NCBI GenBank assembly: GCA_023136775.1
Contig: JAGLQO010000022.1
Location: forward strand, 1 to 50,434
Reading direction: 5' to 3'
DNA: 50,434 nt
DNA from: Candidatus Pacearchaeota archaeon
GTDB taxonomy: Archaea; Nanobdellota; Nanobdellia; Pacearchaeales; GW2011-AR1
In this document: positions 7,570 through 38,759 of the stretch, one piece after another
Layout: each line of letters begins with the position of its first letter
Numbering within the stretch: the first letter of the stretch is position 1
Notes under the pieces: model-generated
The model's database searches: none
The model's input: the letters and a program-made list of their open reading frames with translations, nothing else
What the model was told of the DNA's origin: nothing
Translations under genes and position numbers: made by a program

Positions 7570-10500
7570 TTATTTTTTAGTAAGCGGGATTTTATGAGCT
7601 TTTACTTTATTCACAAGTTTTATTTTCTCTATTTTCTTCTTCCCATAGAATTTCTTGTAGAAAATTATTAGAGTTAATAAAACTAAAATTGAAAAAACTA
7701 ATGCGATTATCATAATAATTATGAATTTATCTTGTTTCTCTTCTTTTGTTTCTATTTCCTCTAATTCGGTTTCATCCAAATCATCATAAACAAGTCCCAT
7801 TACGAAAATTGAGAAACCGTCTGTTGTGGCTTGGAAATAGAAAAACTCCTCATCTGAGTATATGAAATCAGTTTTAACTTTGATCCAAACGTCGCTGTCA
7901 TTTTGCCGTTTAAACATTTCAATTTCTCTAACTATTTTATCTTCGTTAAATCCAGTTTCTAAAACTTTTTCTTCTATCCATTCTCTTGTTATTTTAAAAT
8001 CTAAAGTCACGGAGTCAATCTGGTCATTTGTTATTCCTTCTTTTTCAACAATAAATATTTCATAAGTCTCAAATACTTTTCCAATTGTAACTCCAAGTCT
8101 CAAATCTGCCTCGGTTATATTTTCTACTTCTTCAATTGATATCGAAACTCCTGTAACATTTTCTCCAACGTCTATAGAGACCCCTGTTAGTCCAAAATCT
8201 GAATCATTGATTGTAATATTTGTTGGCTCGTCTGGATTCATTTCTGGGAAAACTGTGACTATTGTGTCGTTTACTACTTCTGCTATTCCTGTTTCTGGGT
8301 CTACTGTTGAGGTAGATGAGCTTCCACTTGAACCTCCGTCGTCCACTGTACAGGATTGAGTTTCTGCTGATTTATTTTCTTCAGTTCCGCAATTGTTATC
8401 GTCGGTACAGGTTCTTGTTTGGGATGATGAGACACAGGTTGACCAAGCGGTGCATGTCCAGTCTTCTTGACAACCCGTACATTCTTGAATTTCTATTGGT
8501 TTAGAAACTGTTGTTCCGCAAGCATTTGCATCAGTGCATATTCTTGTTTGATGAGTTCCGTTACATGCTGACCAGTCTTGGCAGAACCAAGATTCTGTGC
8601 AAGCTGACGCATTATATGCCAAAGGTAAATAATCATAATTGGTTCCATCCAAACTGTAGCTTGAATCACAAATTCCATTTTCGTTGGCGTCTGTGCAGGT
8701 CTCGGAATAACCAGTTCCGTTTGGATATGCCCAATAGTTTCCACCTAAATTTGGACCGTCCATAATATTAGTTTCAGCTTGGAGAGTTGTGTTGAAATAG
8801 TTAGTTAGAGCAGATGCATTGTAATAATTTACCGTATTATTAAAGAAGTTGTTATAAAAAGTGTTGTTGTTGGAAGTGCTTCCAAGACGTATTCCATATT
8901 CTGTATTATTAATTATTTGAGAATTTTTTATGGTATTATTAGAACTTGAATAAAGATAAAACCCATTATAATCAGTTGAATCTGATGTTATATTTGTAAA
9001 GATATTATTAGAACTTGACGACAAACTAAACCCCTCGCGATTAAAATTTGCGATTACATTCATGAATATGTTATTATTGGAATTTGAACTAAAATCTCCA
9101 CTCATTTTATTGAAATTCAGTGTAATATTAGTAAAAATATTATTAGAACTTGAAATTGAACGAATCCCTGCATAAACACCAGAAGAATTCACATTAGACA
9201 TATTAGCCCACTCTGTAGAGTAAAGGATAAGCGCATTATTTTTAAGAATGTCAGAACTTGAAATTGTAACATTATTAATAGTAGAATTATCTGCATCACA
9301 AAGAATAAGTTCCGATAATATCTTATTTTCAACAGTCACCGTATAATTATAAAATTCTATTGGTCTATTTCCCGAACCAGTTATATTTGTATAACTATTA
9401 GTACAATCAACTATATTCGCTGGAAGAGCAATGTCATACAGGGAATTTTCTTGTACTATAATATTTGTGAATATATTATTCGGACTATTATAGGAATTTA
9501 AACCATAATCATTCAAATTTGATGTTATATTTGTAAAGATGTTATTTGAACTTGAACTCTGACGAAAACCATAATCATTCAAATTTGATGTTATATTTGT
9601 GAAAGTATTATTGGAACTTGAATAGATATAGACTCCATTAGCAAAATCGCTTATATTACAATTCTTTACAGTATTATCATTAGAACCCGTACTTAAATAA
9701 ATTCCGGAGTCACTACCGGTACCGTCTATTGTGTATCCCCCACAATCAAAAATTACATTATCTTTACCTGCGAAATCGATACAAGTTCCTACTATGTTAG
9801 AAAGGGATGTGTTAAGTTGGATAGTGTCATCTGCACTGGCAGCTGCGATTTTTGTATTACAATCTGAACAATTATGGCAAGTCACTGGGGGAGTTATAAA
9901 CAGGGGATGATAATCGTAATTAACTCCTCCGATACTATAAGTTGAGTCACAAATTTTATCGTCATTTGAATCTGTGCAAGTTTCAGAAAATCCGGTTCCA
10001 GTTGGTGTTGCCCAGAAGTTTCCACCCATGTTTGGTCCGCCTACAATATTTGTTCCAGCTTGGAGGGTTGTGTTGAAGTAATTACTTACAACTGAGGCGT
10101 TGTGGTAATTTACTGTATTATTGAAAAAGTTGTTATAGAAGGTGTTATTTAAAGAATCTCTAAAATATATCCCATAAACTACGCTGGATTTTACAGAAGA
10201 ATCATTTATCATATTATTATTTGAGTTCCTAAAGTAAAATCCATAGGAATTATCATTGACAGAAACATTTGTAAATGAATTATTATTTGATTCATAAGAA
10301 TAAATTCCGTTCTTATTATTAGAAGAATCTACATTAGACAAACTCACATTATCTGTAAAAAACATATAAATCATGTTATTTTCTAATGTGTCAGAACCCA
10401 TCACTATTACATTATTTATAACTGAATTATCTGCGTTACAAAGAATAAGTTCTGATAAAATTTTATTTTCTATTGTAGCTGTATAATTGTAGTATTCTAT

Positions 10501-13500
10501 TGGTCTTCCTCCTGATCCAGTTACGTTTATTAGAATATTATTACAGTCAATTTCTGGGGCTGCCGAAAATACAATATCTTCATTTATATTTTCTTGAACT
10601 ATAATGTCTTCAAATCTATTTCCATATGTCCCACTAATTTCAAGCCCCCTATAATTATTATTTGCTACAACATTCATGAAAGTGTTATTACTATCTGTTA
10701 CTCTCACCCCCGCACCTGTATTATTATTTGCTACAACATTTGCAAAAGTGTTATTATGTGAATTATAATAAATATTGATACCATAGTTTTGATTCCCGAT
10801 ACTCGTCACATTAGTAAATGTGTTATTATTACAATAATAGCTAAAATAAATCCCTCCTCCGTTATTGTTATTATTAGTTAAAATATCAGAAAATGCATTG
10901 TCATTCGAATTATACAAAATAATTCCGTGATAATTCTCTGAAGAATTTACGTTGCTGATAATTACATTATCTGAATCTACCAAGCTAAACATATTATTTT
11001 TAATTGTATTTGAGCCCTTTATTGTTATGTTGTTTACTATTGAATTATCTGCGTTACAAAGAATAAGTTCTGATAAAATTTTATTTTCTATTGTAGCTGT
11101 ATAATTGTAGTATTCTATTGGTCTTCCTCCTGATCCAGTTATGTTCGTTAGAATATTATTGCAATGAGATTCTGAGGAAGTTTCAATACGAATGTCTTCT
11201 TGATTATTTTCTTGAACACTTGAATTTATTAATTTGTTGCCTTCAGTCTCATCAAAGTATACTCCGAAGTTATTATAATTGGCATTTATGTCTATAAAAG
11301 AATTATTAGTACTAGCTCCTATCTGTATCCCATAATAATGGTTATTAGATGTAATGTTGCTTAGGTTATTATTGTGGCTGTCATAAATCTGTATTCCTCT
11401 ATAAAATTCAGATATGATACAATTCTCTATAGCATTATTATTAGAACCAGAACTTAAATAAATTCCATAATCTGTCCCTGTATAATCTCCGTCTATTGTG
11501 TATCCTTGACAATCAAAAGTTACATTATCTTTGCCTGCAAAATCTATACAAGTACCAACTTGATCATCAATATCATTACTCAACAAAATTGTGTCTCCTA
11601 CACTTGCAGCTGTAATTAATGCGTTACAATCTGAACAATTATTACAAGTTATAGGTTCCATTCCACCGTCAGTTATTGTCCAATTGTATGTGTTGATTAA
11701 ATCTTGTCTTGCAGTGACTGCCGTAGACGAATATTTAGTTGGAGAAGCAACTAGAGAAACTTCTGATTGCAAAGTTGGGAGAGCATCCCATCCTATTAAA
11801 ATTGAATCGTAGTTTTCTGTTGAAAGATTTGAATTGAAAAAAATATTTGACATTGTTGCAACAGATGACACATTCCAGCTGGAAAGATTTTGATTAAAAG
11901 AGGTTGCAAGTTCAAACATATTAGTCATAGATGTTACACTTGAAGTATCCCATGTGGAAATATTACTATTAAAAGAAGTTGCTAATTGGAACACAGCTCC
12001 CATATTTATAACTTTAGACGTATTCCATGAGTTTAGGGGTTGGCTAAAATTATAAGCTGCTTTAAACATATATTGCATAGTTGTTATATTAGAAGTGTCC
12101 CAATTGTTTAGGGGTTGGTTAAAAGAAGTAGCAAAATAAAACATATAATCCATATCTGTTACTTTGGATGTGTCCCATGTGGAAATATTACTATTAAAGT
12201 CAGTAGCATAATTGAACATATCACTCATATCTAATACATTAGACGTGTCCCAATTGTTTAGGGGTTGGTTAAAATCAAAAGCATAACTAAACGTATGGTG
12301 CATGTTAGTTACTTTTGATGTGTTCCAGTTAGATATATCTTGATTAAACTTTCTTGAATTTTGGAACATGTAATACATGGTTGTAATATTTTCAGAAACT
12401 TCATCAAACCAATCTTCAGAAGTAAAATTAGTAATGACTAGACAATCTCTAAGCATATTTTCAGAACTATTTATTCCGGTTAGTCCATTTGACATTGGAC
12501 TTAAAATATCAATAAGTAAATCTTCAGTTCCTTCATAGAATGAAATTCTTGAAGCCCCACCATTTAATGATATGTTATGAATACCTGGAGTTGCAAAAAC
12601 AAAACTTCTAAGTCCAGTTCCATCGTAAGTTGTAGTGTTTGTTCCATTCCATACAACATCTAAGCTTACTGCGTCGTCAGTTTGAAATGAAAATGTTTCA
12701 TCTGGGGTTGTTGTATTAATCTGGAAAGTGAAGTATGTTAATGGTTCCATTCCACCATCAGTTATTGACCAATTGTAATTATCTATAAACGACTGTCTTG
12801 CAGACGAAGCCGATGAAGTATATTGAGAATTTCCTCCGTGGAACTCTGTGTTGTTTTTTAGAGTTGGTAATGAAGACCAACCAGTTAGTAGAGCGTCGTA
12901 ATTATTGGTTGAAAGAGTTACTCCATTAAACATTAGTTGCATTGTCGTTACGTTTGATATGTTCCAAATTGAGAGATTTTGATTGAAGGAAGTGGCACCA
13001 TTAAATGTACTTGACATGTCTATTACGCTTGATACATCCCAAGAGTTTAGAGGCTGATTGAAGGCAGAAGCACTATTAAACATTCTTTGCATGTTTGTTA
13101 CGCTTGATACATCCCAATTTGATATGTTTCCATTGAACAAACTAGCTATATAAAACATATATTGCATGTTTGTTACATTAGAAGTGTCCCAATTTGAAAG
13201 ATTTTGATTAAAAGAAGAAGCACGATCAAACATGGATCGGAATGTTGTAACTTTTGATGTGTCCCAATTTGAAAGATTTTGGTTGAAATTATCAGTATTA
13301 TAAAACATATATTGCATACCTGTTCCTGTTACACTTGAGGTATTCCAGGAATTTAGAGGTTGGTTAAAAGAAATGGCATCATAGAATAAATATTGCATAT
13401 TTGTTACATTAGAGGTATCCCAGTTAGAGAGATTTTGGTTAAAGGGAGTTTCTCGAAACATAAGAGCCATGTTTGTTACTTTTGAAGTATCCCAGTTATT

Positions 13501-14562
13501 TAAAGGTTGATTGAAATTATCAGCAGCACAAAACATGCTATACATATCTGTAACACTAGAAGTGTTCCATGTAGATATGTTACCATTGAAATCAGATTCT
13601 GTAAAAACAGCTGTAAACATATAAGACATGTCAGTTACTTTTGAGGTATCCCAGTTACTCAGAGATTGATTAAAAACAAGTGCATTTTTAAACATTCTTT
13701 GCATGTTTGTTACATTAGAAGTATCCCAGGAGTTTAGGGGTTGATTGAATAATGATGTATCAGCAAATAAATACATCATGTCAGTTACTTTTGAGGTATC
13801 CCAGTTGGAGAGATTTTGGTTGAAATTAATAGCTCCAAAAAACATATGACTCATATCTGATACATTTCCCGAAACTTCATCGAACCAATCTTGGGTCGTA
13901 AAATTAGTAATATTTTCCGCATCTCTAAACATATTTTCAGAACTATTTATTCCAGTTAGTCCATTTGACATTGGACTTAGGATGTCTGTTAATAATGTTG
14001 GAGTTCCTTCATAAAATGAAATTCTTGAGGCTTCACCCTGAATAGAAATATTATGGATTCCTGCTGATGTATAATTATGACTTCTGAGTCCATCTCCGTT
14101 GTAGGTGTCATTTGCTCCTCCGTCGCCCCAGTCTACTAATAAACTTACTGCAGCGTCGGTTTGAAATGAAAAGTTTTGATAATCATTTGTAGTGTTGATT
14201 TGGAAAACAAAAAAATTCGCTGTATCAGATTGAATCGTAAAATCACCTTGGGTTGTGAAGTCTGATTGGATTCCAAAACCTTGTGATTCACTTGATTCTT
14301 CTTCAGGTGCAGATGAATCATCTAGAGGTTCTTCTAGAATTGTTTCATTTTCTAAAGTTTGATTTGTTTCGTTAATTTCTGAAATTGTTTCGTTAATTAA
14401 AGTCTCATTGGTTTCGTTTTCTAATATTGCATGTCCTGTAAACTTAGCATTTTCATCTGTTAAAACTGCTATTGAAACTATTACGAAAATTGCAAACATT
14501 AATGCAAAAAATATATTCTTTGTATTTGTGAACGGTTTACTTTTTGATTTCCCTTTTTTCAT
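7570..14562 (-). CDS. Giant surface protein: BspA-like repeats, beta-helices, TSP1-like motifs, membrane anchor
   Basis: About 2330 residues. The N-terminus (MKKGKSKSK, then a hydrophobic stretch at about 15-35) is a signal/anchor, followed by an acidic Asn/Glu-rich linker. From about 115 come two copies of a module: a PKD-like DWGDGG-type domain, then BspA-like DUF285 repeats (NWDTSKVTNM..MF, about 25 residues each) at roughly 228-555 and 738-915. Two parallel beta-helix (NosD-like) modules follow at about 970-1520 and 1560-1975, each opening with CxxCSDCN and IDFAGKDN. Next come two Cys-rich TSP1-like units (WSACNGTHQTRIC, WSTCVSSSQTRTC), a PGF-pre-PGF-like domain (about 2090-2255), a membrane helix and a basic tail. 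An in-frame ATG at 14619 exists, but a TATA-like TTTTTATA about 20 nt before 14562 favours this start. Probable adhesin or polysaccharide/host-surface binding protein. Confidence 0.85.
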   Translation of the reverse strand: MKKGKSKSKPFTNTKNIFFALMFAIFVIVSIAVLTDENAKFTGHAILENETNETLINETISEINETNQTLENETILEEPLDDSSAPEEESSESQGFGIQSDFTTQGDFTIQSDTANFFVFQINTTNDYQNFSFQTDAAVSLLVDWGDGGANDTYNGDGLRSHNYTSAGIHNISIQGEASRISFYEGTPTLLTDILSPMSNGLTGINSSENMFRDAENITNFTTQDWFDEVSGNVSDMSHMFFGAINFNQNLSNWDTSKVTDMMYLFADTSLFNQPLNSWDTSNVTNMQRMFKNALVFNQSLSNWDTSKVTDMSYMFTAVFTESDFNGNISTWNTSSVTDMYSMFCAADNFNQPLNNWDTSKVTNMALMFRETPFNQNLSNWDTSNVTNMQYLFYDAISFNQPLNSWNTSSVTGTGMQYMFYNTDNFNQNLSNWDTSKVTTFRSMFDRASSFNQNLSNWDTSNVTNMQYMFYIASLFNGNISNWDVSSVTNMQRMFNSASAFNQPLNSWDVSSVIDMSSTFNGATSFNQNLSIWNISNVTTMQLMFNGVTLSTNNYDALLTGWSSLPTLKNNTEFHGGNSQYTSSASSARQSFIDNYNWSITDGGMEPLTYFTFQINTTTPDETFSFQTDDAVSLDVVWNGTNTTTYDGTGLRSFVFATPGIHNISLNGGASRISFYEGTEDLLIDILSPMSNGLTGINSSENMLRDCLVITNFTSEDWFDEVSENITTMYYMFQNSRKFNQDISNWNTSKVTNMHHTFSYAFDFNQPLNNWDTSNVLDMSDMFNYATDFNSNISTWDTSKVTDMDYMFYFATSFNQPLNNWDTSNITTMQYMFKAAYNFSQPLNSWNTSKVINMGAVFQLATSFNSNISTWDTSSVTSMTNMFELATSFNQNLSSWNVSSVATMSNIFFNSNLSTENYDSILIGWDALPTLQSEVSLVASPTKYSSTAVTARQDLINTYNWTITDGGMEPITCNNCSDCNALITAASVGDTILLSNDIDDQVGTCIDFAGKDNVTFDCQGYTIDGDYTGTDYGIYLSSGSNNNAIENCIISEFYRGIQIYDSHNNNLSNITSNNHYYGIQIGASTNNSFIDINANYNNFGVYFDETEGNKLINSSVQENNQEDIRIETSSESHCNNILTNITGSGGRPIEYYNYTATIENKILSELILCNADNSIVNNITIKGSNTIKNNMFSLVDSDNVIISNVNSSENYHGIILYNSNDNAFSDILTNNNNNGGGIYFSYYCNNNTFTNVTSIGNQNYGINIYYNSHNNTFANVVANNNTGAGVRVTDSNNTFMNVVANNNYRGLEISGTYGNRFEDIIVQENINEDIVFSAAPEIDCNNILINVTGSGGRPIEYYNYTATIENKILSELILCNADNSVINNVIVMGSDTLENNMIYMFFTDNVSLSNVDSSNNKNGIYSYESNNNSFTNVSVNDNSYGFYFRNSNNNMINDSSVKSSVVYGIYFRDSLNNTFYNNFFNNTVNYHNASVVSNYFNTTLQAGTNIVGGPNMGGNFWATPTGTGFSETCTDSNDDKICDSTYSIGGVNYDYHPLFITPPVTCHNCSDCNTKIAAASADDTIQLNTSLSNIVGTCIDFAGKDNVIFDCGGYTIDGTGSDSGIYLSTGSNDNTVKNCNISDFANGVYIYSSSNNTFTNITSNLNDYGFRQSSSSNNIFTNITSNLNDYGLNSYNSPNNIFTNIIVQENSLYDIALPANIVDCTNSYTNITGSGNRPIEFYNYTVTVENKILSELILCDADNSTINNVTISSSDILKNNALILYSTEWANMSNVNSSGVYAGIRSISSSNNIFTNITLNFNKMSGDFSSNSNNNIFMNVIANFNREGFSLSSSSNNIFTNITSDSTDYNGFYLYSSSNNTIKNSQIINNTEYGIRLGSTSNNNTFYNNFFNNTVNYYNASALTNYFNTTLQAETNIMDGPNLGGNYWAYPNGTGYSETCTDANENGICDSSYSLDGTNYDYLPLAYNASACTESWFCQDWSACNGTHQTRICTDANACGTTVSKPIEIQECTGCQEDWTCTAWSTCVSSSQTRTCTDDNNCGTEENKSAETQSCTVDDGGSSGSSSTSTVDPETGIAEVVNDTIVTVFPEMNPDEPTNITINDSDFGLTGVSIDVGENVTGVSISIEEVENITEADLRLGVTIGKVFETYEIFIVEKEGITNDQIDSVTLDFKITREWIEEKVLETGFNEDKIVREIEMFKRQNDSDVWIKVKTDFIYSDEEFFYFQATTDGFSIFVMGLVYDDLDETELEEIETKEEKQDKFIIIMIIALVFSILVLLTLIIFYKKFYGKKKIEKIKLVNKVKAHKIPLTKK

Positions 14563-14622
14563 GAAAATTAAAAACATCTTTAGTATAAAAAGATTATTGA
14601 AGATTAGTTTTATTTGCACATT

Positions 14623-32900: not shown

Positions 32901-33041
32901 GTCGATAAGGGGTGGAGTTGGCGCGTGAATGAGAAAGCTAAATAAACGAAGGAACTATTATCTATACGAGAAGCAACGCTTCTCTAATTGAGCAATTTTT
33001 GTTTTAGTTAAGTTTATATTTATCAAGAATTATATTTTGTT

Positions 33042-33137
33042 ATGGGGTTAGTGGTGAAAACTAAGATTAAAGAATATACTCAGCTTAATGTAGGCTCCCT
33101 TTTAGAAAAAGGTTCCCTGGAATCAAAACTTGGTTAG
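33042..33137 (+). pseudogene. Duplicated 5' end of the histone gene fused to family C element
   Basis: The promoter and first 16 codons of the histone gene (MGLVVKTKIKEYTQLN) recur 285 bp upstream of the real gene. Bases 33002-33091 match 33287-33376 with three differences, all at synonymous third positions. The frame then runs into the element and ends as VGSLLEKGSLESKLG followed by TAG. It is a target duplication and probably not functional. Confidence 0.85.
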
Positions 33138-33286: not shown

Positions 33287-33326
33287 TTTTAGTTAAGTTT
33301 ATATTTATCAAGAATTATATTTTGTT

Positions 33327-33488
33327 ATGGGATTGGTGGTGAAAACTAAGATTAAGGAATATACTCAGCTTAATGTTGGGGAGGAATTTTCTAGGGCTTT
33401 TGAGAGGAAGGTTGAGAATTTATTGAAGGATGCTGAGGAGCGGGCTAAGGCTAATGGTCGTCGGACTATTTATGCGCGGGATATTTGA
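33327..33488 (+). CDS. Small archaeal histone-fold protein, 53 aa
   Basis: The protein is MGLVVKTKIKEYTQLNVGEE followed by FSRAFERKVENLLKDAEERA and KANGRRTIYARDI. The central helix plus the A-N-G-R-R-T-x-x-x-R-D-I ending match the second helix, loop 2 and third helix of archaeal histones (compare AGRKTVKASDI). It is probably a DNA-packaging histone or the related DUF1931 type. TATA box TTTATATTTA and a start identical to the duplicated copy upstream support this gene. Its length is short because the N-terminal helix is reduced. Confidence 0.85.
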   Translation: MGLVVKTKIKEYTQLNVGEEFSRAFERKVENLLKDAEERAKANGRRTIYARDI

Positions 33489-33778
33489 TGCATTGACATT
33501 TTTCCGTGGTCGGAAAAATCGTCAGGGGAAATCCACACAGGATTTCTATGTCCAGACCGCTTACCGTCGAGGCCGCAGACGGTCTGATATTATGAGGGAA
33601 TTTATTCTAAATTCCCGACTTGGGGAGTACTTCTTCCGCAGCTGCAGCACACCCCTTAGCGAAGGGGCGAAAAATTATGTCGTCTTCGACGCACCCTCAC
33701 GATATATAATAAATATTGGTTGACCTCAAACGGCATGGCTCTGGTGACCCCGGGCAAGCTTCCACATTTCTTATGGAG
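33489..33778. repeat. Family A structured intergenic repeat, copy A4
   Basis: Stem 1 is TTTTTCC/GGAAAAA in TTGACA...TCGTCA. Stem 2 is GAAATCC/GGATTTC around ACACA. Stem 3 is CCAGACC (33552-33558) with GGTCTG (33581-33586) around CTTACCGTCG and CGCAGAC. Stem 4 is GGGAATTT/AAATTCCC. The stem 5 region carries an insertion with CCCCTTAGCGAAGGGG and CACCCTCAC, the GACCTCAAACGGCATGG module, and ends CATTTCTTATGGAG. It starts 3 nt after the histone stop. Confidence 0.85.
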
Positions 33779-33784
33779 TTCTAG

Positions 33785-33877
33785 ATTATTATTTTAACTT
33801 ATTTACTTTATTAGCTTATTCCTTGATTTGTTGCTTTATCGATTTCTATTGTAGCGTTTCTAAGTTTTATTTTTTCT
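33785..33877 (-). pseudogene. Remnant of a corC-like 3' end
   Basis: On the minus strand this reads EKIKLRNATIEIDKATNQGI and then a stop. It nearly matches the C-terminus of the intact corC-like gene at 37527-38759 (EKIKLRNATIQIDKATNQGI). The RhuM gene runs into it in another frame and uses its TAA. It is one of two corC pieces flanking RhuM. Confidence 0.8.
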
Positions 33878-34877
33878 CTATTTGATTTATTAGCTTATCA
33901 AAATCTGACTCAAAAAGATTATCTTGAATTATTCTATATGTTTCAAATTCTGAAACTGCAAATTCTTTTGCTATTTTTGCAGTTATTTTTCCTGGACTAT
34001 TTAGCACTTCTCTCTCATCAAACTCTAAAAATAAATCGAGTCGTTTTGACCAATCTTCCATTGTCATCGGTATTTTTCTTATTGCTCTTTCTTTTGCTAA
34101 ATCAAGATATGCCCCAACTATTCTTCCAAGAGATTCCATTTCGTCTTTTTTCAAATAATTTTTGGCAATGGACACATCTGTTTTTAGAATTTTTCCGTTT
34201 GGAGAATTTTTCCATGATGTTAAACCCATATATTCTTTTTTACTGTTAGCTCTCTTCGTTATTAATTCTGGAGCTGTATTATGATGTATTGCAAAATGAA
34301 GTTTGTTTTGTACCTTTGCAAAAAAGTCTTTTGTTAACTTGGAATCATTTTCGTAGTCTAAACTTGTAGAATAAATATCCGTTATCTTTTGATAGAAATT
34401 TCTTTCGCTTAATCTAATTTCGCTAATTTCCTCTAAAAGCTCGTCAAAATAATTTTTATTTAAGTATACTCCATTTTCCAATCTTTTTTTATCTATGACG
34501 TACCCTTTGAGTGCAAATTGTTTTATTATCTTCGTTGCCCAAATTCTAAATTGTGTTGCTTTATTTGAATTTACTCTATATCCTACTGAAATTATTGTGT
34601 CTAAGTTATAAAATTTGGTATTATAATTTTTTCCGTCAGTACTAGATAGTCGGAATTCCCGACATACTAATTTTTCATTTAATTCGCCATCTTTAAAAAT
34701 ATTGGATAAGTGTTCTGTTATAGTATTTCTGCTTTTATCAAATAATTTCGCGATCATTTTTTGTGACAACCAAACTGTTTCGTCTTGGAATTTTACCTCT
34801 ATAGAATCTTCTTTTGACTGAGTCGTGAATATTAAAAATTCTGCTGTAGAATTTCTAATTGTTAGATTTTTGTCCAT
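33867..34877 (-). CDS. RhuM family protein
   Basis: The protein is 336 residues and of the virulence-associated RhuM type, widespread on bacterial islands. Typical N-terminal blocks are QDETVWLSQKMIAKLFDKSRNTITEHL (a helix-turn-helix-like DNA-binding region, about 29-55), FRLSSTDGKNYNTKFYNLD and ISVGYRVNSNKATQFRIWATKII, with a helical C-terminal half. The molecular role is not established. A good archaeal TATA box (TTTATAAC) stands 20 nt before the ATG. The last codons lie in a corC remnant, so the natural C-terminus may be altered. Confidence 0.88.
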   Translation of the reverse strand: MDKNLTIRNSTAEFLIFTTQSKEDSIEVKFQDETVWLSQKMIAKLFDKSRNTITEHLSNIFKDGELNEKLVCREFRLSSTDGKNYNTKFYNLDTIISVGYRVNSNKATQFRIWATKIIKQFALKGYVIDKKRLENGVYLNKNYFDELLEEISEIRLSERNFYQKITDIYSTSLDYENDSKLTKDFFAKVQNKLHFAIHHNTAPELITKRANSKKEYMGLTSWKNSPNGKILKTDVSIAKNYLKKDEMESLGRIVGAYLDLAKERAIRKIPMTMEDWSKRLDLFLEFDEREVLNSPGKITAKIAKEFAVSEFETYRIIQDNLFESDFDKLINQIEKK

Positions 34878-34914
34878 AGAATTAGATAAATGAGAAAGTT
34901 ATAAATATTGTTAT

Positions 34915-34946
34915 CTAGTTTCCTTTTATTTTTTTTACCGATTTGA
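34915..34946 (-). pseudogene. Second corC-like 3' tip, upstream of RhuM
   Basis: On the minus strand it reads SVKKIKGN then stop. It matches the last codons of the intact corC-like protein (SVKIIKGN) with few base changes. Together with 33785-33877 it brackets the RhuM gene, in an order that implies a duplicated corC end split by insertion. Confidence 0.6.
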
Positions 34947-35004
34947 TATATCTAAAATTTTCTGATCCGGTTGCGACACACCTCTAATTTGCGAATTGTG
35001 AAGC

Positions 35005-35142
35005 GATTTCTAGATTCCAAATCCCTTACCGACTAGTGCACCCTCACTATTTACTACTTAGATTGGTTGGTCTCAAACGATATGGCTCTGTTAACCCTGG
35101 GCAGGCTCCCCCATTTCTTATGGAGTGTTTTAGATTTTATAT
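35005..35142. repeat. Family A repeat, copy A5 (partial, with module)
   Basis: Only the first arm of stem 3 (CCAAATC...CTTACCGACT) is kept, followed by CACCCTCAC, GGTCTCAAACGATATGG and GGGCAGGCTCC, closing with CATTTCTTATGGAG. Sequence from 35143 to 35235 contains one fair hairpin (AGTTCGGTTTT...AAAACCGAATTT) and no convincing gene. Confidence 0.65.
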
Positions 35143-35235
35143 TGAAACTAACGTTTGGATTATGAGAAGTTCGGTTTTGAGACAACCCATAAAACCGAAT
35201 TTGGATGGAGAAGTCTGCAAGACTTTCTAATCTCT

Positions 35236-35310
35236 TAATCGCTGTTAATTTCGTCTGACCGACGGGAGGAGAGCGCAGCGTGGCAAGGCGTAGCCGCAGA
35301 GTTCTGAACC
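35236..35310 (-). repeat. Possible degenerate attC-like site D
   Basis: On the minus strand CGACGAGG pairs with CCTCCCGTCG around a GC-rich loop (GCGGCTACGCC, GCTGCGC). It begins with the GTTCAGAACTC motif seen at the other cassette ends. The core boxes of sites A and B are not present, so the assignment is weak. Confidence 0.35.
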
Positions 35311-35323
35311 TCGTCGTTAATTA

Positions 35324-35725
35324 TTATTTCTTTTCAATATTTTGTATTAACCACAATCCAATTATTAGGGCCACCATACTACCAAAACCATAGTATCCAC
35401 TGATCCAATCTGCGACAGTCCCTATTGCACTAACAAAAACTACACGATGCGCAAGCACAAGTTCTTCTTTGCCCGTAGTTTGACGAAGTTGCCAACCCAG
35501 AACGATGTTCAACCCAGCCGATAGCATTACGATTAATCCACAAACCAAGCCCACAATTGGTGAAGCCGTATGCCATGAGGGCACGAAGGTATGTCCTGGC
35601 GCGAAGAATAGTAACATATCTTGCAATCCGCCGTAAAGCATCAACACCCCACCCAAGACTAATACGATTAACCAAGCCTGGCGATGAAGTCTTTGTTTTT
35701 TCGTGAGATTTTTATTTTTCATCAT
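35324..35725 (-). CDS. Bacterial-type membrane protein, 133 aa, cassette gene
   Basis: A four-helix membrane protein (about residues 17-35, 52-75, 90-108 and 112-128) with a conserved-looking WISGYYGFGSMVALIIGLWL end. Its GC content and codon use (GTA, CTG, GCG, CCC) are clearly higher than in the host genes around it, which indicates transfer. It still has an AT-rich, TATA-like upstream region (ATATTTAAAAAAG). No family recognised. It is the last cassette of the candidate array. Confidence 0.75.
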   Translation of the reverse strand: MMKNKNLTKKQRLHRQAWLIVLVLGGVLMLYGGLQDMLLFFAPGHTFVPSWHTASPIVGLVCGLIVMLSAGLNIVLGWQLRQTTGKEELVLAHRVVFVSAIGTVADWISGYYGFGSMVALIIGLWLIQNIEKK

Positions 35726-35763
35726 AATATGTTATTTTCTACTTTTTTAAATATTTTGTCTTT

Positions 35764-35936
35764 TTCAAGGGGTTCAGAATTTCATATAACATTTGGGTTA
35801 AGGAAAGTTTTTTGAGCATAGCGGGGGAAATTTGGGAAAATTGCGAGCCGAGTAATTTTCCTTTTATCTCTTGTTATATGAGGGTGAACGAAACAAAGTG
35901 GAGTGAAAGCGCAGCATCCCCTTGAGTTTCTGAACA
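35764..35936 (-). repeat. attC-like hairpin site A
   Basis: On the minus strand CATATAAC...GTTATATG form the outer box pair (98 bp apart), with AAGAGATAAAAGG and CCTTAACCC inside and a central hairpin GGAAAATT/AATTTTCC around ACTCGGCTCGC. On the upstream side it carries AAACTCAAGGGG and GCTGCGC. Its outer boxes pair perfectly within the site. Confidence 0.6.
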
Positions 35937-35939
35937 CAC

Positions 35940-36116
35940 TTATTTTCGGTATTTTAAAACTAAAAATATTCCTATGGTAAAAAATATTATTGCTATTCCT
36001 ATCGTTGCCCATTCATAGCTTTTAATAAATTTATTGGCAATAGTAATAATCAATACGGCAATACCTATAAAAAATAAACCAATCCCTTGTTTTTTGTTTA
36101 ATGTTTTTGATTTCAT
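35940..36116 (-). CDS. Small two-helix membrane protein, 58 aa, cassette gene
   Basis: Reads MKSKTLNKKQGIGLFFIGIA and continues with VLIITIANKFIKSYEW to a final KYRK. Two membrane helices (about 12-28 and 38-54) are separated by a short loop. It starts 2 nt after the stop of the zinc-ribbon gene, so both are one transcription unit and one cassette. The stop lies 5 nt before the conserved cassette-end motif. No family recognised. Confidence 0.7.
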   Translation of the reverse strand: MKSKTLNKKQGIGLFFIGIAVLIITIANKFIKSYEWATIGIAIIFFTIGIFLVLKYRK

Positions 36117-36118
36117 AA

Positions 36119-36334
36119 TTAATATTTTTCCTTTAATTTTTCAATATCTTTTTTTTCATCTATCCACTCTTCAGAAAAACCACAGTTGCTACATAAATAT
36201 CTAGTAATTTTCACCGCACTAAAAACAGTAGCACCAAGCATGATGTTGTTCCCTACACCAAATCCTCCGACTTTTCCAGGTATTCTAATTATTTTTTTTG
36301 ATGAACATTTAGGACATTGTTTTGAATTTTTCAT
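36119..36334 (-). CDS. Zinc-ribbon protein with Gly-rich middle, 71 aa, cassette gene
   Basis: Two CxxC pairs (CPKC at about 8-11 and CSNC at about 48-51) form a zinc ribbon around a Gly-rich, partly hydrophobic middle (GKVGGFGVGNNIMLGA). A charged helix ends the protein (DEKKDIEKLKEKY). Short proteins of this kind are common in bacteria. Function unknown. First gene of the two-gene cassette. Confidence 0.75.
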   Translation of the reverse strand: MKNSKQCPKCSSKKIIRIPGKVGGFGVGNNIMLGATVFSAVKITRYLCSNCGFSEEWIDEKKDIEKLKEKY

Positions 36335-36369
36335 AATATTATTAATAAGTTAATTATTAAAAACTTTTT

Positions 36370-36540
36370 GGTGTGCTCAGAAATTTCGTATAATATCTGG
36401 GATAAAAGAAGTTTTGTGAACGTAGTGAGCAAAATTTGGGAAAATTGCGAGCTGAGCAATTTTCCTTTTATCCCTTGTTATACGAGGTTGAAATTCTGAA
36501 AGAATTTTAAGTGCAGTGTCCCCTTGAGTTTCAAACCTTG
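36370..36540 (-). repeat. attC-like hairpin site B
   Basis: About 75-80% alike to site A by eye. On the minus strand CGTATAAC and ATTATACG form the outer box pair, then GGGATAAAAG and CTTTTATCCC pair perfectly, then GGAAAATT/AATTTTCC around GCTCAGCTCGC. The change from CATATAA/TTATATG in site A to CGTATAA/TTATACG here is compensatory. On the upstream side it carries GAAACTCAAGGGG and CACTGCAC. Confidence 0.65.
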
Positions 36541-36550
36541 CCGTTTTAAT

Positions 36551-37255
36551 TCAGGATTTAATATTTGGTTTTACACCTTTTATCAAAAGCCATAAAAGCA
36601 GAATTAATTCTCCCCAAAAGGTATAATCTGTAATCCTTATATTAAAACTTGGGAGAAAAAAGAATATAAAGACATCTGCTAAATAACCTATACCTGCAAC
36701 TAATAATAAAATTCCGATAATTCTGCTGATAATTTTAGGAAAATATCTCGATTTGATTATTAGAAGTCCTAACGGAACTAACCAAAGACCAAAGAAAATG
36801 TGATTAATCACTACACCATTCTGATATAAATTTAGAAATAACATTGTTAGAGATTCTAATTGACTGGCTTCAAATACTCTTAGATAATTTCCATTTAAAA
36901 TAATAATTGCTACAATTTTGTTAAGTGTGTTTATGCAGGCGATAGCACCACCTACTAATACTAATGAAAACATTAAAAGTGCATTATTTTTATTTATTGG
37001 CTTAAACAGTTTGTATAACATAAATGCTGTTAATATCCAAAATACTGCCATTATTAATTCACTTACAATTCCTAAATTGAATAATGACATTGAGTTAAGG
37101 ATGTTATTTGCTGTTATTACAGCATCGCCTGAAATAACTAACTTTTTGTCTACAAAGAAAGTAAAGAATGCAGTTATTGCTAGAATTAAATAAAAAAATC
37201 CTGCAATTCTTGCATTTTTTTTAGGAGATTCAATTTCTTGATTATTATTTTTCAT
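36551..37255 (-). CDS. DUF4386-type membrane protein, 234 aa, cassette gene
   Basis: A protein with about seven membrane helices that resembles the bacterial DUF4386 family: KKNARIAGFFYLILAITAFF at the start, then SELIMAVFWILTAFMLYKLF, NGVVINHIFFGLWLVPLGLLI and SRIIGILLLVAGIGYLAD. The family function is unknown; members are frequent in Bacteroidota and other bacteria. A TATA-like ATTTATATATAAG lies about 18-20 nt before the ATG. It fills one whole cassette between sites C and B. Confidence 0.85.
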   Translation of the reverse strand: MKNNNQEIESPKKNARIAGFFYLILAITAFFTFFVDKKLVISGDAVITANNILNSMSLFNLGIVSELIMAVFWILTAFMLYKLFKPINKNNALLMFSLVLVGGAIACINTLNKIVAIIILNGNYLRVFEASQLESLTMLFLNLYQNGVVINHIFFGLWLVPLGLLIIKSRYFPKIISRIIGILLLVAGIGYLADVFIFFFLPSFNIRITDYTFWGELILLLWLLIKGVKPNIKS

Positions 37256-37304
37256 ATATTTATTAATTATTAAAACTTATATATAAATCTATTCACAATT
37301 GAAG

Positions 37305-37345
37305 GCAAGATTTGAAATTTCATATAACATCTGGTTAAACGCAAT
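37305..37345 (-). repeat. Truncated attC-like site C
   Basis: On the minus strand GCGTTTAACCAGATGTTATATG and then AAATTTCAAATC match the downstream half of sites A and B. The other half is missing, as at the first cassette of an array or after deletion. The stretch between here and corC (37346-37526) is AT-rich with no gene seen. Confidence 0.5.
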
Positions 37346-37526
37346 AACAGTTGTGTTAAATCCAAACATAAAGAATATATTCGTTGAATTTTTATATAAA
37401 ATTAAAATTTTATTATATTTTATGCGACAATATAATTATACTATTCCTATTAATATTTTCTTAAGAAAGTTTGAAAATTTCTGTATTCTCCAAGTGCATT
37501 TTAAATAAACAATTAAATCTTATATA

Positions 37527-38759
37527 TTAGTTTCCTTTTATTATTTTTACTGACTTAATTCCTTGGTTTGTTGCTTTGTCTATTTGAATTGTTGCGTTTC
37601 TAAGTTTTATTTTTTCTCCAGACCTTGGAATTCTTTGGAGTTTATGTTCTATATATCCAGCTAATGTGTTATATTGTTCTCCTTTGATTCCTAGCTTTAA
37701 AACTTTGTTTAAATCGTCTATGGGGATTTTTGCATCTACTCTTATTACGTCGTCTTTTAATTTTTTAACGTAAAGATTTTTTCTTTTTGATTTATCAAAT
37801 ATATCTCCGACTATTTCTTCTAGAATATCTTCAACTGTTACTAGACCTTCGATATCTGAATATTCATCTACGACGATAGCCATTGGGACTTCTTTTCCTT
37901 CAAACTCTGTCAATAAATCATCTATCTCTTTTGTTTCTGGAATGAATAAAACTGGACGCAGGATTGTTTTTACTTTTCTACTTAATTTTTTATCCCTTAC
38001 TTGGCGAAGAACGTCGTCGATATCTATGATTCCTTCAATCTCGTTTTCTTTAATGTAAACTGGATATCTTGAGTATGGAGTTTTTACTATGAAGTCTAAA
38101 ACTTCAGAAATCTTTTTTTCGCCATCAATCATTTTCATATCAATTCTCGGGGTCATAATTTCTTGGGCAATTGTTCCTCCGAATTTCAAAACGTTATGCA
38201 TAATCTCTGCAGCTTCTTTTTCTAGCAAGCCTTCTTTTCGCCCCATTGTTACAATTGTTTCCAACTCTGATTCTGACAAGCCGCCTTCTTTTTTAGAGCC
38301 CAAAAGTTTTGACATTATTTTTGAAATTTTTTCAAACATCCAAACTAATGGATGTAGGAATATTGATAAAATTTCTACTGGTCTTGCAATCGCTAAAGAA
38401 ATTCTTTCAGCGTTATTTGCGGCATAAGTTTTTGGAGTTATTTCTCCGAAGATTAAAATTAAGAAAGTCATAATTCCTGTAGCCATCCCAACGCCGCTTG
38501 AGCCAAAAAGTCCTGTAAACATTACTGTTGCTAGGGAAGCTGCTCCAATGTTTACTAAATTATTTCCTATTAGAATTGTTATGATTAATCTGTGTGGATT
38601 TTGTTTTATTCTATGTAGAGTTGCTGCGCCCTTCTTCCCTTGTTTTACTAAAGCCTTTGTCTTGATTTGATTTATAGACATAAGTGCAGTTTCTGTTCCT
38701 GAGAAAAGAGCGGACAAAATTAATAGAATGACTAATGATATAATTTGAATTTCAAGCAT
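37527..38759 (-). CDS. CorC/HlyC-type transporter-associated protein (CNNM domain + CBS pair)
   Basis: A protein of 410 residues. The N-terminal CNNM/DUF21 membrane domain (about 1-180) has LLILSALFSGTETALMSINQIK and FGEITPKTYAA. Two CBS domains follow (about 200-325): MTPRIDMKMIDGEKKISE, and YSDIEGLVTVEDILEEIVGDI. A C-terminal CorC_HlyC transport-associated domain (about 335-410) closes the protein. The family is linked to Mg2+/Co2+ export or resistance. Fragments of a second copy of its 3' end flank the RhuM gene 3-4 kb away. Confidence 0.93.
   Translation of the reverse strand: MLEIQIISLVILLILSALFSGTETALMSINQIKTKALVKQGKKGAATLHRIKQNPHRLIITILIGNNLVNIGAASLATVMFTGLFGSSGVGMATGIMTFLILIFGEITPKTYAANNAERISLAIARPVEILSIFLHPLVWMFEKISKIMSKLLGSKKEGGLSESELETIVTMGRKEGLLEKEAAEIMHNVLKFGGTIAQEIMTPRIDMKMIDGEKKISEVLDFIVKTPYSRYPVYIKENEIEGIIDIDDVLRQVRDKKLSRKVKTILRPVLFIPETKEIDDLLTEFEGKEVPMAIVVDEYSDIEGLVTVEDILEEIVGDIFDKSKRKNLYVKKLKDDVIRVDAKIPIDDLNKVLKLGIKGEQYNTLAGYIEHKLQRIPRSGEKIKLRNATIQIDKATNQGIKSVKIIKGN

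Follow-up and report, generated by a model that had tools for sequence, protein, structure and literature searches.

How do the integrons of archaea compare with those of bacteria? Gene cassettes similar to the ones considered here spread antibiotic resistance in bacteria. In bacterial integrons, represented below by those of IntI1 and VchIntIA, a divergent integrase gene and an adjacent insertion point accompany a mobile cassette array. The VchIntIA-VCR complex has an IntI-specific region that includes the alpha-I2 helix as well as residues contacting extrahelical bases (PMC3053210), and this domain is held to be necessary for integron activity by Messier and Roy (2001), as that work is cited in PMC4792948. 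In archaea, Ghaly et al. (2022) reported 75 MAGs with integrons, most of them CALINs, together with six IntIs recognized by the IntI-specific domain; their attC clusters include some from Nanoarchaeota (PMC9668308). In the full-text literature on DPANN, Nanoarchaeota, Woesearchaeota, Pacearchaeota and archaeal integrons (preprints and most subscription journals lie outside it), an integron integrase of the XerA type is unreported.

The window analyzed here is a stretch of 50,434 nucleotides, contig C15 of a Candidatus Pacearchaeota assembly (1.2 Mb, 38 contigs, completeness 87.5%). A sequence-only reading had pointed to a cassette cluster of the integron type in the genome of a DPANN archaeon, and our analysis supports it. 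We propose that the window array very probably belongs to an integron system native to DPANN archaea and served by an integrase of the XerA type, and that it is the CALIN-like part of this system, without an integrase of its own. The arrays as such are of a known kind, the CALIN; what is new is the integrase, the attI and the type of site. The CALINs surveyed by Ghaly et al. also comprise DPANN attC clusters and may in part be these same arrays, but that survey reports neither an integrase of the XerA type with its attI nor the abundance of the system across the phylum (PMC9668308).

A three-cassette array in the window

The array spans window positions 35143-37328, with the cassettes themselves running from 37327 to 35152 on the minus strand, and it holds the four small minus-strand ORFs (234, 71, 58 and 133 aa) in three units that the sequence-only reading had described. 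Cassette 1 (36394..37327, measured from crossover to crossover with limits set by the R' G^TT positions) carries a gene for a DUF4386 membrane protein of 234 aa (36551-37255; Pfam PF14329, E 1e-46). Cassette 2 (35790..36393), whose limits recur in another genome, carries genes for a zinc-ribbon-like protein of 71 aa (36119-36334) and a membrane protein of 58 aa (35940-36116). Cassette 3 (35152..35789), again delimited by R' G^TT positions, carries a gene for a membrane protein of 133 aa (35324-35725) that matches no Pfam family. The cassettes end, respectively, in the minus-strand attC-like sites W1 (36385..36485; 78.6 bits and E 3.6e-16 with the covariance model R2 described below), W2 (35781..35881; 59.6 bits, E 2.5e-11) and W3 (35143..35252; 69.9 bits, E 5.9e-14). 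The outer boxes CRTATAAC/GTTATAYG and the inner arms GGGATAAAAG/CTTTTATCCC pair as had been claimed, and the single orientation of the sites likewise holds, the long sites at 35778-35888 and 36382-36492 being 83% identical in the same direction. The earlier list of sites was incomplete, however, as W3 reaches outside the range then considered; with W3 placed at 35143-35252, a site terminates every one of the three units. The crossover of W1 reads ATT instead of GTT (G to A). An Rfam search of the window matched tRNA alone.

The upstream edge of the array (37311..37362, minus strand) is a half site that ends in GATG^TT, lacks R'' and is preceded on the same strand by an imperfect inverted repeat, GGATTTAACACAA..TTGCGTTTAACCA. 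This edge forms a direct repeat with the R' ends of the attC sites and resembles the attI sites upstream of integrases; it could be attI-like, or else an attC that decayed. When a CALIN is taken as two or more attCs spaced by less than 4 kb with no intI adjacent, the window array is one, since three sites lie within 1.35 kb and the nearest integrase is on a different contig. The earlier statement that the cluster has no integrase stands for the locus, but the genome does have a matching integrase, on contig C13.

Fold, covariation and anatomy of the sites

Covariance modeling and single-strand folding, both of which had been named as ways to check the sequence-only reading, indicate a structure that covaries. 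Folded as single-stranded DNA, W1 has a z of -6.97 (0/200 shuffles), W2 of -2.1 and W3 of -3.05; fold alone is weak for W2 and for the site C1 (z = -0.5). A first covariance model, R1, was built on five sites of the same genome and then found sites in relatives, and a second, R2, was built on 31 sites. In the 31-site alignment, 86.3% of cells are paired, two-sided change occurs in 20 of 24 pairs, and the covariation score is 0.475 as against 0.147 for column shuffles and 0.046-0.116 for slid partners, although fitting the alignment to the structure biases the absolute pairing and covariation figures upward. Both AAC and GTT are essentially invariant in this alignment. Across 170 sites the median R''-R' span is 100 nt, with TAACA-GGATTAAnnG ... 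CTTAATCC-CGATGTTA as the consensus; the strict RYYYAAC box is present in 54 and the strict GTTRRRY in 46, or about 30%.

These sites resemble bacterial attC sites in being folded, in their invariant AAC..GTT, in their R''-L''-L'-R' order and in their G^TT crossover. They differ from them in lacking the extrahelical base of the L stem: the bulge is missing on the 5' side in 180 of 185 sites and on the 3' side in 183 of 185, counts that lean toward none and may hide some bulges because R2 was trained on bulge-free sites. The central spacer is asymmetric, with 2 nt on one side and 4 nt on the other.

Could the sites instead be dispersed structured repeats, MITE-like for example, that flank small genes by chance? 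Such repeats might well be long imperfect palindromes about 80% identical to one another, as the sites within the window are, yet the sites form tandem clusters of a single orientation that adjoin one recombinase clade, the units are bounded at GTT, and compensatory changes preserve the arms. We find this explanation hardly credible. Moreover, occurrence throughout the genome beside unrelated host genes, which was to be expected of ordinary repeats, is not what is seen: the genome contains 7 R2 sites, or 8 with a laxer cut-off, all in small clusters.

A XerA-type recombinase beside a second array

The genome encodes two Xer/IntI-like recombinases, on contigs C10 and C13. The C10 recombinase groups with XerA-type genes common to most genomes of the family. 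The C13 gene (L024:7185-7988, minus strand) encodes a tyrosine recombinase of 267 aa and stands head to head with an array in which a 118-aa gene is followed by a site at 8565-8658 of the same locus, and a GmrSD-type gene by a second site at 10852-10943, the two cassettes carrying the window's attC type. An attI-like site, consisting of a perfect 13-bp inverted repeat and then GATGTTAAACG, separates the start of the integrase gene from the first cassette. Near this integron, at L024:12230-12560, are tandem partial copies that resemble a tRNA gene plus its upstream region. A third cassette cluster of the genome, at L278:4996-6724 (contig C3:40995-42723), contains a zinc-type alcohol dehydrogenase gene and a 69-aa gene; the last site of the C3 array includes one stretch 92% identical to W3.

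What kind of recombinase is the C13 protein? It scores 233 bits against NF040815 (XerA_Arch), for which the cut-off is 220, while its match to TIGR02249 is below cut-off and split around positions 180-236. In a structure search the top E-values belong to XerA (PDB 4a8e and 5hxy), followed by IntI4 (2a3v), which has the higher TM-score. As the model has low confidence around residues 242-250 and a high rmsd to the structures it matches, only one feature of it was used, the absence of an extra helix: as modeled, the C13 recombinase has none between residues 175 and 190. The catalytic residues RKHRHY (R, K, HxxR, H, Y) are intact in all 32 array-linked recombinases. In every one of the 32, in contrast to bacterial integron integrases, the IntI-specific region measures 17-24 residues as opposed to 63 in IntI1, and roughly 43 residues of it are missing. 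The IntI-specific patch, which the sequence-only reading had proposed to look for in a recombinase of the genome, is accordingly absent from the C13 integrase. The likeness to archaeal XerA extends to the NF040815 model, size and fold (PDB 4a8e, 5hxy); the difference is that the DPANN integrase belongs to a separate clade, is patchy in its distribution and is tied to arrays, the housekeeping XerA of this genome being the one on C10.

The likeness to XerA raises the alternative that the arrays are Xer/dif-type modules, with the sites as complex dif sites and the recombinase as a XerA duplicate that resolves dimers or serves pdif-like modules. The score above the NF040815 cut-off agrees with this, as does the attI palindrome, whose arms of 10-16 bp round a short loop are dif-like. 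We nevertheless regard the alternative as very unlikely. A dif-type site is 28 bp long and recombines at its center, whereas these sites are about 100 nt long with two covarying nested pairs of arms, the units are bounded at GTT and not at the center, and the evidence of crossover is at a GTT that lies outside the palindrome. In addition, most of these genomes have a separate XerA gene with no adjoining sites.

Linkage of one recombinase clade to the arrays

Among 138 genomes of the family, matches to the C13 protein are bimodal: identity is 61-81% in about 35 genomes and 38-49% in most genomes. In a tree of 104 proteins, of the 22 array-linked recombinases 21 group in a clade of 43 rows and one, L101, is unplaced, while none of 50 loci of the XerA-type clade is array-linked. 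In a wider tree with a second sample, a single state change again explains the linkage. The layout of the linked loci is fixed as well: the sites are found on the side of the start codon and point away from the divergent integrase, with the sole exception of L078, where the site is oriented oppositely. Of 20 arrays chosen by their sites alone, almost all of which belong to other families in the phylum, 11 had a recombinase of the clade type on the expected side, and several of the remaining arrays reach a contig end there (e.g., L347, L351, L352, L355 and L362).

At the level of genomes, at least two sites occur in 26 of the 41 with a clade integrase and in 10 of the 97 without (p = 4e-10). 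The MAGs are incomplete, and 8 family genomes have at least two sites with no clade integrase detected. The contig ends no more than 500 bp upstream of where the integrase gene starts in 13 of 35 cases, compared with 1 of 47 for XerA, and on the downstream side of the integrase in 1 of 35; such breaks are as expected if variable or repeated arrays disrupt assembly. A site on the expected side was not found in the clade members L072, L082, L084 and L087, which have 3-7 kb of upstream sequence.

Distribution of sites and integrases

Matches to R2 were found in 103 of 279 genomes of the phylum, with at least two sites in 56; they occur in 86 of the 219 high-quality phylum genomes and in 55 of the 138 family genomes. 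In a bacterial control phylum the count is 1 of 198. The sequence-only reading had left open whether the cluster was moved into the genome or is native to it; the phylum-wide occurrence speaks for a native system and against a recent bacterial import. The closest bacterial counterparts of the integrase are small recombinases of Bacteroidota and Ignavibacteria, annotated 'site-specific tyrosine recombinase/integron integrase', which are about 40% identical, similar in length and share a C-terminal SPLD motif. They differ in their surroundings, since attC of the window type was not found in the loci of these bacterial homologues or in five whole genomes. Exact attC 3'-end patterns had zero matches in viral contigs, so that carriage by viruses is without evidence.

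Movement of the platform itself is suggested by two loci. In L360 (contig C11 of G371), which belongs to another family, a clade A integrase 76% identical to that of C13 is accompanied by an array, which suggests a recent horizontal transfer, inside the class, of the complete platform; this locus has a second recombinase 6 kb off. In L197, from a MAG labelled Aenigmatarchaeota, the integrase is 66% identical and three sites are present. The presence of clade integrases in these two places implies either horizontal movement or, for the latter, a wrong label.

These counts also bear on the proposal that the window array is an ordinary CALIN, in which archaea captured cassettes of bacterial integrons that only a bacterial IntI moves, either in trans or once DNA has been taken up, as has been suggested for archaeal CALINs generally, and the XerA-type recombinase is a bystander. 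Archaeal integrons are indeed mostly CALINs, and IntI1 recombines archaeal attCs (PMC9668308). We consider the proposal unlikely, however, as canonical IntI is above cut-off in none of the 279 phylum genomes, that of the window included, and the sites are common in this phylum and nearly lacking from the bacterial control. Similarly, a bystander would not be expected to show the fixed layout of clade and array or the conserved attI-like site, when the XerA genes of the same genomes are unlinked, and the cassette genes have archaeal TATA boxes, as described below.

Cassette movement and the attI junctions

The native integron system that we favor should leave junctions at G^TT, and relatives should differ by whole units. 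Both are seen. A unit on contig C11 of G384 (archaeon isolate CSMAG_1910, whose integrase is 97% identical) is 84% identical to window cassette 2, and the homology extends from the G^TT of the preceding site to the G^TT of the following site with unrelated flanks on either side. In G109 (L069), of another genus, a relative of the same cassette is the first cassette at the integrase attI, which ties the window cassettes to the C13-type integrase platform. Likewise, among close relatives the attI sites match as far as G^TT, beyond which the first cassettes differ, and conversely the attIs of L058 and L074 differ while the start of the first cassette is the same. Thus, contrary to the possibility raised with the sequence-only reading that relatives never differ by whole units, they do differ by whole crossover-bounded units (cassette 2 in G384 and G109; L058 and L074). 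The putative attI lies next to the integrase and consists of an inverted repeat and then GTT, with divergence after G^TT; unlike the bacterial attI, it is an almost perfect palindrome with nAT and GTT after it.

Two further observations were made in these genomes. G022 has two integrons, L066 (contig C18) and L093 (contig C31), with integrases of different subclades that are 71% and about 47-49% identical to the C13 protein; the first cassettes of the two start almost identically. On the G384 contig that carries the shared cassette, an archaeal MAG contig, a 276-aa bacterial-type sigma-70 family protein with regions 1.2, 2 and 4 (Pfam E 1e-13 and 6e-9) is encoded at L306:4044-4874 (plus strand), adjoining an 800-aa valyl-tRNA-synthetase-like ORF and the shared cassette.

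Promoters and orientation of cassette genes

A perfect 8/8 TATA at -40..-18 is present in 49% of 68 cassette genes and in 5% of shuffled upstream DNA, in agreement with the sequence-only suggestion that cassette genes have TATA-like promoters of their own. The companion expectation, that integron cassettes are promoter-poor and unidirectional, fits the window insofar as its genes lie on one strand, but does not fit the TATA boxes or the related arrays, where the longest ORF of a cassette is on the same strand in 44 cases and on the opposite strand in 26, some of these ORFs being possibly spurious. With TATA boxes in half of the genes and mixed orientation, the cassettes are not promoterless units read from a Pc, and in this the DPANN system differs from bacterial integrons. 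As two defining features of IntI integrons are missing, the system is not classed as an IntI integron; in other respects it passes the sequence tests for an integron-like way of working.

A model for the proposed DPANN integron

From site anatomy, covariation, clade linkage, separation from XerA, unit boundaries and the missing domain, all of which are read directly in the DNA, we infer catalysis, a single-stranded substrate and action of the C13 recombinase in trans on the window array. We propose that the C13 recombinase would bind the R and L arms of an attC, which is probably used as a folded single strand, because the structure is conserved. It would then cut the R' box between G and TT, put circular cassettes into attI or, more rarely, into secondary sites, of which the window locus would be one, and excise or reshuffle cassettes. 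Since there is no extrahelical base in the L stem and asymmetry exists only in the spacer, the choice of strand and orientation would have to be made via the spacer or loop. Cassette genes would be expressed singly from archaeal TATA promoters and not from one common promoter. The window array, with no integrase in cis and a mutated W1 crossover, may be a dead relic.

Beyond this locus, we see an even chance that a plain XerA-type recombinase acting on folded attC sites, with no reading of extrahelical bases, represents a distinct and possibly ancestral DPANN class of integron; the IntI domain would then possibly be a later addition, and integrons would not necessarily be a bacterial invention. 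A natural system that has neither the domain nor the L-stem base makes domain-free site recognition, and the origin of integrons, testable. In surveys that require IntI, complete DPANN integrons would pass for CALINs. Finally, a dedicated gene-capture platform would be present in very small archaeal genomes, in about a third of the species sampled.

Sequences around the array

The window encodes, among others, RtcB, cysteinyl-tRNA synthetase, a class II aminoacyl-tRNA synthetase, RuBisCO, a type II/IV secretion ATPase and histone-fold ORFs, a gene content in keeping with a DPANN archaeon, and the CNNM gene flanking the array is present in two genus mates. Repeat-rich stretches lie beside the array at 33691-33878, 34902-35126 and 37514-37618. 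Direct repeats (33691-33779 and 35038-35126, 80%) enclose a RhuM-family gene (33867-34877), and segments of the CNNM gene's 3' end (37527) are repeated at 33818-33878 (90%) and 34902-34947 (78%); these repeats hint at a possible second insertion or duplication adjoining the array. Farther off, a 93-nt direct repeat (33002-33094 and 33287-33379, 96% identical) takes in the start of a histone-fold ORF and suggests that part of a gene was duplicated, and an ORF of 2349 aa occupies 7570-14619 on the minus strand.
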